Positions 50,580-53,906 of a stretch of 64,000 nucleotides of DNA are shown one piece after another. The position numbers and the translations under genes were made by a program. The DNA lies in NCBI RefSeq assembly GCF_000337615.1, contig NZ_AOII01000020.1, positions 1 through 64,000 of the forward strand, in the 5' to 3' direction. The stretch comes from Natrinema pallidum DSM 3751. Lineage in GTDB: Archaea; Halobacteriota; Halobacteria; Halobacteriales; Natrialbaceae. Positions within the stretch are counted from its first letter, which is position 1, and the number at the start of each line of letters is the position of its first letter. A model generated the notes under the pieces. The model had not been told where the DNA came from. It saw only the letters and a program-made list of their open reading frames with translations, and did not search any database.

Positions 50580-50626
50580 AGCACACGACGGCTGTGCAAT
50601 CCGCACGAGTCGGTTCAGTTGGGACT
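50580..50626 (+). repeat. Dispersed stem-loop repeat, copy 1
   Basis: Contains GCACACGACGGCTGTGC and GTCGGTTCAGTTGGGACT. It resembles copies at 59102 and 62639 in order and sequence. It overlaps the last codons of the CDF transporter gene. Confidence 0.55.
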
Positions 50627-51550
50627 GTCACGGCCCTCGAACTCGTCGGCCGATTCCTTCCACTCGCCGATGCCCGAGGGATCGAGGTGGACGTGGGCGT
50701 CGCCGACGTCTTCGAGACCCCGCAGTCGTGCGACCAGTTCCGACTCGATATCGTGGGCCTCCCGAAACGGCATGTCGCCATCGACCTCGACGTGGACTTC
50801 GACCTCGAGCACCGTGCCGTCGTAGAAGACGGTCAGGTCGTGGACGCCCGCGACGGCCGGATGCCGCCGGAGGGCGGCCGTGATCTCCCGTCGCTTCTCG
50901 GGACCGGGCGCGGCACCGATGAGGTAATCGACGTTTTCCCTGCCGATCTCGATGCCCTGATAGACGACCAGCAGACTGACGAGGCCGCCGGCGACGGGAT
51001 CGAGTATCGGATAGCCGACGAGGACGCCGAGAACGCCCACGATGGCGGCGACCGAGGTGTAGATATCGTTCAAACAGTCCTTCGCGAGCGCCGCGAGCGC
51101 GGTCGACTGCAGGTGCTCGTTGATCGCCACAGTGTAGCGATAGACCAGATACATGTCGACGATCGAGAAGCCGAGCGCCACGAGGAGCAACGCACTGAAC
51201 TCGATGTCGGTTCCGTACAGCAGTCCCTGACCGGACCGGTAGAGCAGGTTCAATCCTAACAGTGCGATGACGGCCCCGACGAACAGCGCCGTCAGGGGCT
51301 CGATCCGGTCGTGACCGTGGGGATGCGTGTCGTCGGGTTCGTCGAACGCGCTCCGTCCCCAGACGAGGACGACGACGCTGGCAACGAGATCGGCCAGCGA
51401 GTGAGCCGCGTCGGCCAGCAGGGCAACGCTGCCGAACGCGAACCCCGCACCGCCCTCGGCGACGATCTTGGCGATGTTCCCGAGGACGTTCGCCCACGAC
51501 GCCCACGCGAACCCGCGTCGCCCGCCGTCCGCCGCGTCCGCTTCGGACAT
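50615..51550 (-). CDS. Cation diffusion facilitator (CDF) transporter
   Basis: A 311-residue metal/proton antiporter that exports divalent cations such as Zn, Mn or Fe. Six hydrophobic segments occupy the first two thirds. The metal site is seen in LLADAAHSLADLVAS (helix 2); the second half-site in helix 5 reads AKDCLNDIYTS, where the more usual H-x3-D is C-x2-ND, so metal preference may be altered. A histidine-rich loop (DDTHPHGHDRIEP) follows helix 3 start. The C-terminal cytoplasmic domain has HDLTVFYDGTVLEVEVHVEVD. Divergent from the fluoride channel genes. Its last codons lie in a dispersed repeat. Confidence 0.88.
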   Translation of the reverse strand: MSEADAADGGRRGFAWASWANVLGNIAKIVAEGGAGFAFGSVALLADAAHSLADLVASVVVLVWGRSAFDEPDDTHPHGHDRIEPLTALFVGAVIALLGLNLLYRSGQGLLYGTDIEFSALLLVALGFSIVDMYLVYRYTVAINEHLQSTALAALAKDCLNDIYTSVAAIVGVLGVLVGYPILDPVAGGLVSLLVVYQGIEIGRENVDYLIGAAPGPEKRREITAALRRHPAVAGVHDLTVFYDGTVLEVEVHVEVDGDMPFREAHDIESELVARLRGLEDVGDAHVHLDPSGIGEWKESADEFEGRDSPN

Positions 51551-51668
51551 GGCTCGGTTTAGAGGCAGTCTAACCTTGGCTCTTTTCCTTCCCCGCTCGA
51601 GGCGCGCGCCGTCGATCGGGCACCGATCACAACCCTCATTGGGGGACCACGAGAGGGACGAAACGACC

Positions 51669-51767
51669 GGGCGATGGGGCCCGCCCGACCCAACCGCCGG
51701 AGCGACATCGACCGCGTCCGGAGCGAGCACGGACTCGCCGAGCGTCGTCCGGCTGACGGTCCCTGCG
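51669..51767 (+). promoter_or_regulatory. Fluoride riboswitch (crcB RNA)
   Basis: P1 is GGGCG-ATGGGGCC-CGCCC (51669-51686), which equals the 18-base hairpin of the crystallised Thermotoga petrophila fluoride aptamer except for one base. P2 is formed by GCCGGA (51696-51701) and TCCGGC (51748-51753), extended by CGAC/GTCG after one bulge. The loop pseudoknot pairs GGGGCC (51677-51682 region) with GGTCCC (51758-51763). The changed loop base, A to G, is matched by U to C in its partner, a covariation. The linchpin A (51756) and U (51764) are kept. The P2 arm carries about 46 extra bases with a hairpin GTCCG/CGGAC. It ends 13 bases before the channel ATG. Confidence 0.85.
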
Positions 51768-51779
51768 TGAGTCCCAGTC

Positions 51780-52187
51780 ATGGCAGACACACATCCACTC
51801 GTTCGCCTCGAGACGGTCGCACTGATCGCTGTCGGCGGGTTCGCCGGCTCGAACCTCCGGTTTTTCGCGATGGGGCTGCTGCCCGACGTGCCGTCGATCG
51901 TTCTGGTCAACGCCGTCGGAAGCGCGGTCCTCGCCTTCCTGGTCTACGAAGCCGACTACGCGAACCGCCTGACCGCACGGACTCGACTCGTCTTCACGAC
52001 GGGGGTGCTCTCCTCGCTGACGACCTACAGCACGTTCGCGCTCCAGACCGCGCTCGCGGCGCGCCCGCTCGCGCTGGGCGGCATCGTCGCCGCGAACTAC
52101 GGGCTCGGCCTCGCCGGCGTCCTCGTCGGCCGGTTGCTCGCGCGTCGGTTCGGCGTACCGCGGCCGACCGGTGGTGAGACCGCATGA
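51780..52187 (+). CDS. crcB: Fluoride exporter FluC/CrcB, subunit 1
   Basis: A 135-residue four-helix fluoride channel. Family features are GGFAGSNLRFFAMGLLP near the N-terminus (usual form GGxxGAxxR), LVNAVGSAVLAFLVY with the conserved asparagine, and the central TTGVLSSLTTYSTFALQT, matching the G-x-FTTFSTF block with some changes. FluC channels are antiparallel dimers; organisms with two genes in tandem make heterodimers, which fits the overlap with the next gene. The fluoride riboswitch directly upstream should turn the pair on when fluoride is present. Confidence 0.93.
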   Translation: MADTHPLVRLETVALIAVGGFAGSNLRFFAMGLLPDVPSIVLVNAVGSAVLAFLVYEADYANRLTARTRLVFTTGVLSSLTTYSTFALQTALAARPLALGGIVAANYGLGLAGVLVGRLLARRFGVPRPTGGETA

Positions 52188-52612
52188 GCGTGCTCCTTCT
52201 CGAGGGGATCGACATGCTCGGTCGAACGGCCGCCACCATCGATCTCGAGCCGGCCCACGTCGTCGGCACCGGCGGGGCGATCGGAGCCAGCCTTCGATAC
52301 GTGACCACGCAACGGGTGACCGAACGGCTCTCGAGCGAGCGGGTCCCGCTGGCGACGTTCGTGGTCAACGTCGTCGGCAGTTTCGTCCTCGGTCTCGTGG
52401 TCTTCGCCGGCGTGGGCGGGTCGACGCTCCGACTCGTCGGGACCGGTATCTGTGGCTCGTTCACGACGTTTTCCTCGTTTTCGGTCGAAACGGTCCGGCT
52501 GTACGAGCGCGGCGATCGGACCCTCGCGGTCGCCAACGCCGCGGTGACTCTCGTCTGCTCGCTCGCGGCGATCGGACTGGCGTGGCTACTCGTCGCCGTC
52601 ACCGCCCTCTGA
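52184..52612 (+). CDS. crcB: Fluoride exporter FluC/CrcB, subunit 2
   Basis: A 142-residue channel protein with GTGGAIGASLRYVTTQR, TFVVNVVGSFVLGLVVFAG and GTGICGSFTTFSSFSVET, a closer match to the family consensus than its partner. It overlaps the first gene by four bases (ATGA), a sign of coupled translation. Together the two probably form a heterodimer with the two pores differing in the phenylalanine box. The ATG at 52217 inside the frame could also be used, since conserved sequence starts near residue 27. Confidence 0.93.
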   Translation: MSVLLLEGIDMLGRTAATIDLEPAHVVGTGGAIGASLRYVTTQRVTERLSSERVPLATFVVNVVGSFVLGLVVFAGVGGSTLRLVGTGICGSFTTFSSFSVETVRLYERGDRTLAVANAAVTLVCSLAAIGLAWLLVAVTAL

Positions 52613-52749: not shown

Positions 52750-53325
52750 ATGGAGGCTCGCCAAGACGCGTGGCGGATCTACCGCGAGTCACTGCCGATC
52801 CTCGTGGTCAGCCTCGCCGGCGGGATCTTCGCCGGATCGGTCCTCGGATCGGAAGGAATGACCGAGGGGTTCGAGCGGTTCCCCGGGCTCTTACTGTTGC
52901 TTCCCGCCTTCCTCGCGACGCGAGGGAACGTCTACGGCGCGATGGGGGCGCGCATCTCGAGTGGACTTCACCAGGGGATGATCGACCCCGAGTTCTCGTG
53001 GGACCGGCGGCTGGTCAACGCCGTCGCCGCCTCGTTTATCAACGGCATCGGGATCTCGGTCGTCATCGCGGTCCTCTCGTGGGGCATTCTGCATCTCCTC
53101 GGTCGTGAATCGGCCAGGCTCGTCGAACTCGTCGGCATCATGCTCGTCTCCGGCGTCCTCACGTCCGTGACCCTGATCTTCGGACTGCTGGGGCTGGTGT
53201 TCGCGAGCTACAAATATGGGCTCGATCCGGACAACCTGATTGGCCCGATCGTCACCACGCTCGGCGACATCTTCGGCGTCGTCTTCCTCTTCGTCGCGAT
53301 CACCGTCGTGGGGGGGATCTTCTAA
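52750..53325 (+). CDS. MgtE-type divalent cation transporter domain, first half
   Basis: A 191-residue protein consisting only of the MgtE membrane domain (five helices): LPILVVSLAGGIFAGSVLGS, LLLLPAFLATRGNVYGAMGARISSGLHQG (the conserved N-x-G region of the pore) and GLDPDNLIGPIVTTLGDIFGV (the helix-5 cation site with its DxxxxP..T..GD pattern). The N-domain and CBS domains of bacterial MgtE are missing. It overlaps a second MgtE domain gene by one base. The two should assemble as a heterodimer or two-domain transporter like eukaryotic SLC41. Likely transports magnesium. Confidence 0.87.
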   Translation: MEARQDAWRIYRESLPILVVSLAGGIFAGSVLGSEGMTEGFERFPGLLLLLPAFLATRGNVYGAMGARISSGLHQGMIDPEFSWDRRLVNAVAASFINGIGISVVIAVLSWGILHLLGRESARLVELVGIMLVSGVLTSVTLIFGLLGLVFASYKYGLDPDNLIGPIVTTLGDIFGVVFLFVAITVVGGIF

Positions 53326-53906
53326 TGGCGGCCGCGGGCCCGGAGGAGCCGCTCGATACCTGGGCGATCCGCAGCATCGTTACTACGATGTTTCCCATCC
53401 TGCTCGTCCTCTCGCTGCTCGAGATGGGATCGGGCTACGTGCTCGAGGCACTCGAGAAAACCTATCTCTCCAATCCGACGCTGCTGGTGCTCGTCCCCGT
53501 CATGATCGGGATGGGCGGCAACCTCGGTGCGATCCTCTCCTCGCGACTCTCGACGCGGCTCCACCTTGGCCTGCTCGAGTTCGATCCGCGCGACGAGGTC
53601 CTGTGGACGAACGTACTGGCGATCATGGGACTGGCGGCGACGATCTTCTCGGCGCTGGGCGTCGCGGCCTGGATCGTCGGACGGGTCATCGCCGAACCGA
53701 TGGCGCTGGCCGATCTCATGCTCATCTCGACCGTCAGCGGTCTGCTTCTGGCCGTGATCGCGATCGTACTCAGCATCGGCGCGACCTATATCTCCTACAC
53801 GCAGGGTCTGGACCCGGACGATACGACGATCCCGGTAGTCACGAACGTCTGTGACATCCTCGGCGTGATCGTCCTCTCGGGGGTCGCGATCGTCGTCCTG
53901 AACTAA
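53325..53906 (+). CDS. MgtE-type divalent cation transporter domain, second half
   Basis: A 193-residue MgtE membrane domain: FPILLVLSLLEMGSGYVLEA, LLVLVPVMIGMGGNLGAILSSRLSTRLHLG and GLDPDDTTIPVVTNVCDILGV. The start codon shares a base with the stop of the first half (TAATG), so the two are made together. Compared with the first half, the asparagine of the pore region sits in GGNLGA and helix 5 has the D/T/N/D set. The regulation missing from the proteins may come from the adjacent PhoU/TrkA-C gene. Confidence 0.87.
   Translation: MAAAGPEEPLDTWAIRSIVTTMFPILLVLSLLEMGSGYVLEALEKTYLSNPTLLVLVPVMIGMGGNLGAILSSRLSTRLHLGLLEFDPRDEVLWTNVLAIMGLAATIFSALGVAAWIVGRVIAEPMALADLMLISTVSGLLLAVIAIVLSIGATYISYTQGLDPDDTTIPVVTNVCDILGVIVLSGVAIVVLN

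Follow-up and report, generated by a model that had tools for sequence, protein, structure and literature searches.

A predicted fluoride riboswitch with an enlarged P2 arm in the leader of twin fluC genes of Natrinema pallidum and other Natrialbaceae

The 5' leader of the fluC1-fluC2 gene pair of Natrinema pallidum DSM 3751 contains, at positions 51669-51767 (+ strand) of the window (the whole 64,000-nucleotide stretch of contig NZ_AOII01000020.1 that was analysed), an element that is confirmed, by its architecture as read from the sequence and by its place upstream of fluoride exporter genes, as a fluoride riboswitch aptamer. The predicted RNA is of a known kind, from which it departs by a long P2 arm and a C at position 41. 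The leader as a whole probably forms a fluoride-ON riboswitch, which would act on translation through pairing with the start region.

Identification of the aptamer

A preliminary description of this DNA had proposed a fluoride riboswitch here, and the proposal was borne out by a match to the Rfam covariance model RF01734 and by comparative evidence. The match covers 51661-51772 (+) with 26.8 bits (E 2.5e-5 in the 601 bases searched) and was the single one in a search of the entire genome (E 3.8e-5). At Rfam's gathering score of 34 bits, which is a curation limit and not a biological feature, 51669-51767 is not listed. Taken to the letter, the RF01734 score that had been suggested as a check thus lies below threshold (26.8 versus 34), but the genome-wide E-value and the passing of relatives with short inserts uphold the aptamer. 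In the alignment to the model all consensus pairs are standard and the P2 arm is mostly placed as an insert. This insert explains the low score, because five relatives that share the core but whose inserts measure 5-9 nt reach 35.4-38.6 bits with RF01734; the loss to the window amounts to about 10-12 bits. A haloarchaeal covariance model found the same sole genomic site with 69.4 bits, a score that is not independent since the window belongs to its training set.

All parts of the aptamer lie on the + strand. The RF01734 match and covariation place the P1 hairpin at 51669..51686 (strands 51669-51673 and 51682-51686), and its loop contains the 5' strand of the pseudoknot (GGGGCC, 51676-51681). 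The P2 stem and its enlarged arm occupy 51696..51753, with strands at 51696-51701 and 51748-51753 and an insert at 51699-51750 that has an internal hairpin. There follows a segment, 51754..51764, of U38, G39, A40, C41, the 3' pseudoknot strand (GGUCCC, 51758-51763, forming one G-U pair with the 5' strand), and the linchpin U48; its placement rests on the covariation of the pseudoknot. All 14 core pairs of P1, P2, and the pseudoknot are standard in the window, and the linchpin A40 (51756) and U48 (51764), both kept in nearly all relatives, are present, in agreement with what had been noted earlier on P2 pairing and the linchpin. The ATG of fluC1 is at 51780, 15 nt past the linchpin U, and the relatives are alike in this position of the aptamer in the fluC1 leader.

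A single base difference in P1 from the T. petrophila aptamer, with a matched change in the pairing partner, had also been described, and this difference was found again as A9G matched by U46C. Two further differences, C44U and U41C, were absent from that account. The T. petrophila sequence used in this comparison is consistent with the nucleotide positions given in PMC11586693.

Covariation and distribution

Natrialbaceae and seven further families of Halobacteria supplied forty distinct cores, in which 97.3% of the cells over the 14 pairs hold standard pairs and seven core pairs show double changes (42 cells in total). None of 500 shuffles matched the real cores in percentage paired, in double-change cells, or in covariation score. 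Trimming the core rows to a fixed frame about the known motif somewhat favours the structure; sliding the structure along the alignment is the fairer control, and every slide scored far lower than the real core structure. The pseudoknot occurs as GGAGUC/GACUCC, GGCGUC/GACGCC, GGGGCU/GGCUCC, and GGGGCC/GGUCCC. Thus, the one matched change from which a covarying pseudoknot had been proposed belongs to a wide pattern, in which P1, P2, and the pseudoknot covary across eight haloarchaeal families.

RF01734 matches were obtained in 43 of 125 Natrialbaceae genomes, in eight of which they pass the Rfam cut-off. Every match of at least 24.9 bits in this family precedes fluC and has the same core; the two weakest (22-23 bits) were rejected as false, being located inside argC and hutU. 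A second covariance model, built from 42 relatives, detected the aptamer before fluC in 46 genomes that RF01734 had missed. The aptamer therefore precedes fluC in about 89 of the 125 Natrialbaceae genomes, and this FluC is encoded in 119. Most of these copies (all but eight of about 89) are hidden by the Rfam threshold because the P2 arm can grow to 177 nt.

The enlarged P2 arm

The preliminary description had noted about 46 extra bases in P2. The arm is real, with an insert of 52 nt by our count, but it is not a fixed feature and is short in some relatives with the same core. Among Natrialbaceae the insert ranges from 3 to 177 nt (median 46.5) and reaches at least 20 nt in 70 of 86 copies, versus 4-24 nt (median 9) and one of 32 copies in the other haloarchaeal families; in methanogens and other Halobacteriota, too, the fluoride aptamers are compact. 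Within Natrialba alone the insert extends from 13 nt, at three loci, up to 154-177 nt. The three arms of 154-177 nt have grown by tandem units resembling GGTCGGCTG, which fold into one long hairpin. The enlarged P2 arm is thus specific to the lineage, and it is hypervariable in sequence and length.

As a group, the Natrialbaceae arms fold better than shuffled sequences, with a mean z of -1.54, and 24 of 71 fall below -2; grouped in nine sequence clusters, they have a mean z of -1.46 (p 0.006). The arm of the window has a folding z of -1.5 if the six outer base pairs are included and of -0.13 with another choice of ends. In the arms of five close relatives two compensatory pairs were found, which is weak evidence as 39 of 500 shuffles score at least as high for covariation, and a consensus fold of eleven arms from the window's genus was uninformative because their alignment is too divergent. 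We read these data as selection that holds the arm closed without fixing its sequence or length. The 52-nt arm would then be a peripheral extension kept paired, which may stabilise P2 and would require no function of its own. The possibility that the arm is a dispersed repeat or mobile insert was rejected, as it has a single genomic copy and other matches are short and weak.

Promoter and transcript start

A promoter-like element with a BRE-like CACAA and a CTCAT at the TATA position lies at 51628..51639 (+) and agrees with a consensus found in most Natrialbaceae. Anchored on P1, this consensus reads CGcAAc.cTcAT, with the CTCAT 35 nt 5' of P1, and is followed by GAGAA and gtAtCCG. Since the same element is kept before seven fluC genes without an aptamer, CGcAAc.cTcAT belongs to the promoter. 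In other haloarchaeal families the most A+T-rich hexamer is mostly found 31-38 nt 5' of P1. The haloarchaeal BRE and TATA elements have been given as CGAAA and TTWT, respectively (PMC4983044). About 26 nt past the element at the TATA position is the predicted start region, 51660..51665 (+), from which we infer that transcription starts just 5' of P1, at about 51660-51665. In Haloferax volcanii about 72% of the transcripts have no leader, and leaders with structure were regarded as untypical of this species (PMC4983044); by that standard a fluC leader of about 115 nt is unusual in itself.

Control of expression

In the mechanism that we consider probable, transcription would begin just 5' of P1 and, without fluoride, GGCUGAC in the 3' half of the aptamer would pair with CAGYY (Y, C or T) beside the AUG and thereby hold the start region. 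This helix might nucleate at the toehold U38-G39-A40-C41 and then invade the foot of P2. The candidate start-sequestering element of the window is CAGTC at 51775..51779 (+), just before the ATG, which complements GGCUG at 51751-51755. A CAGYY motif abutting the ATG, complementary to GGCUG in the 3' strand of P2, was present in 56 of the 82 leaders with an aptamer versus two of 30 aptamer-less fluC leaders (p 3e-9) and none of the 55 starts of long ORFs in the window (p 2e-18 against the aptamer leaders), where both p values are nominal as relatives are not independent samples. In six Natrialbaceae leaders the anti-start helix comprises 9-10 bp and reaches into the pseudoknot strand. Two further leaders retain a complement of this type farther from the ATG, which favours pairing over a conserved start context. 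Folding points in the same direction at the level of the group: in 77 Natrialbaceae leaders the start is more closed than in shuffled leaders (z -5.0), and forcing the aptamer fold opens it more than in the shuffles (z 5.1).

The signal is weaker in single leaders. Tested one by one against shuffled leaders, the anti-start helix reached p <= 0.05 in 16% of cases, the group tests being stronger, and 31 leaders of other haloarchaeal families had no significant start sequestration in folding. In the window, the helix CAGUC/GGCUG has 5 bp including one G-U, folding of the leader revealed no switch (93% of shuffles do equally well), and the P1 loop pairs with the leader instead in the free fold of lowest energy. 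P1 and P2 are already formed without fluoride in the B. cereus riboswitch (PMC11586693), and the long P2 arm should resist invasion by the strand adjacent to the start. Translational control is thus likely for the clade, as far as these comparisons go, and less sure for the copy in the window.

The weakness of this helix in the window would fit a true fluoride riboswitch whose target is transcription (its elongation or its termination) or the stability of the mRNA instead of the start of translation, and terminators are used by many bacterial fluoride riboswitches (PMC13273304). However, the complementarity next to the start is specific to aptamer-bearing genes, and the 82 Natrialbaceae leaders contain no T run longer than three between the pseudoknot and the ATG, a stretch of 11-20 nt (median 15); a U-tract terminator was likewise not found in the window. 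U-tract termination was rejected accordingly, for want of both room and signal, and we regard control at one of these other levels as unlikely. Where the preliminary description had left the choice between translation and termination, the start-adjacent complementarity favours translation.

Position 41 and the integrity of the switch

Immediately 3' of the linchpin A, where fluoride riboswitches have a highly conserved U, the window has a C (51757), as do nearly all copies in Natrialbaceae. Relatives with short arms whose scores exceed the Rfam cut-off have C41 too, and C41 therefore is variation inside the riboswitch family. In contrast, 31 of 32 copies from other families of haloarchaea have U41, as does every true aptamer examined from other Halobacteriota. 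When 84,980 genomes were scanned for cores with C41, and for these alone, 13 stretches were returned, nine of them in Natrialbaceae. Two Natrialbaceae loci (L002 and L011, in genomes G023 and G019) carry the classical type with U41, a GGAGUC pseudoknot, and a short arm; both aptamer types, as typed from their sequences, occur within the family.

These features can be combined into one reading, in which a derived Natrialbaceae subclass, marked by C41, the GGGGCC/GGUCCC pseudoknot, a freely growing P2 arm, and sequestration of a start that lacks a Shine-Dalgarno sequence by the 3' strand of P2, would have been retuned for fluoride in a cytoplasm of molar KCl. C41 and the opposite leader base would be part of one switching helix, and the length of the arm would tune the set point via the stability of P2. 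As a joint proposal this is improbable to our minds.

C41 might also have abolished or changed fluoride binding, so that the fold is kept while the response is gone, leaving the leader as a constitutive structure heading for loss. Such a reading could draw on the hypervariable P2 arm, on decayed or lost copies at seven loci of the genus (L051, L052, L062, L066, L067, L071, and L072), and on the B. cereus switch, where U41A causes a loss of ligand response (PMC11077080). A C at this position was outside the mutants tested there, and a change from U to C is milder than one from U to A; furthermore, fluoride is held via backbone phosphates and Mg2+ (PMC8752731). The core, including the linchpin A and U, is near-invariant in dozens of genomes and its pseudoknot pairs are kept. 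A dead aptamer would not remain so constant, and we consider loss of the response very unlikely. That G+C-rich DNA before fluC resembles the aptamer by chance, as the score under the gathering threshold and false matches in coding DNA of up to 22-23 bits might suggest, was rejected as extremely improbable on conservation and covariation, given that about 89 genomes have a near-invariant core with compensatory changes at this one site upstream of fluC.

Relation to known riboswitches

With the RF01734 aptamers of T. petrophila and B. cereus the element shares P1, P2, the pseudoknot, the linchpin A and U, and an exporter gene downstream; it differs from them in its 52-nt P2 insert (up to 177 nt in relatives), in C41 for U41, in the GGGGCC/GGUCCC pseudoknot, and in having no terminator. 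The compact aptamers of other families of Halobacteria have the same core and the same site before fluC, many with CAGYY before the ATG, but have inserts of 4-24 nt, U41, and mostly a GGAGUC/GACUCC pseudoknot. The crcB motif was reported from bacteria and archaea in 2010 (PMC2864571). According to a 2021 publication (PMC8241225), the fluoride riboswitch of T. kodakarensis (Speed et al. 2018) was then the sole natural archaeal riboswitch determined experimentally. By its description there it resembles the present element in being archaeal, presumably translational, and associated with fluoride-export genes; its host is a hyperthermophile, unlike the haloarchaeal host here. Synthetic theophylline riboswitches of Haloferax volcanii mask the start region without ligand, as is proposed here, and indicate that control by start masking is workable in haloarchaea, although they are engineered, respond to another ligand, and mask the Shine-Dalgarno sequence too (PMC8241225). 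No report of a haloarchaeal fluoride riboswitch was found in the open-access literature. If the present reading is true, a natural haloarchaeal fluoride riboswitch would be among the few archaeal riboswitches and would occur in a genetically tractable group. It would raise the questions whether a sensor of this anion can function in molar chloride, how translation can be controlled by a ligand where mRNAs mostly are leaderless and the use of Shine-Dalgarno sequences is doubtful, and whether C41 can stand in for a supposedly essential U.

Genomic context

Both genes of the pair belong to the CrcB family, as had been proposed: fluC1 (51780..52187, +) matches PF02537 (E 7.5e-14) and NCBIfam crcB models, and fluC2 (52184..52612, +) matches PF02537 (E 3.6e-24) and TIGR00494 above its cut-off. 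The start of fluC2 overlaps the stop of fluC1 by 4 nt (ATGA), and 59 of 60 related loci contain a FluC2-like gene. Directly downstream of fluC2 (52750-53906) stands a tandem of two MgtE-type genes of half size (PF01769). Upstream, a divergent gene for a CDF-type cation exporter (50615-51550, - strand) is separated from fluC by a region that contains the palindrome GGTTTAGAGGCAGTCTAACC (51556-51575), which probably serves the CDF gene as its operator. At four other loci (L005, L025, L066, and L083) palindromes of a similar kind are found next to fluC.

In the window's genus, L051, L059, L062, L067, and L072 have each lost core pairs and/or the linchpin U, the aptamer of L052 is without its 5' half, L071 retains a remnant, and L066 has the promoter and start with no aptamer. 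These copies, located before intact fluC genes with the promoter element kept, form a natural series of riboswitch loss. The riboswitch is dispensable in some species of the genus, the copy in the window being intact. At two loci from another family (L165, with aptamers at 262-320 and 677-735 on the + strand, and L172, on the reverse strand; genomes G347 and G395), two fluoride aptamers lie 415 nt apart.
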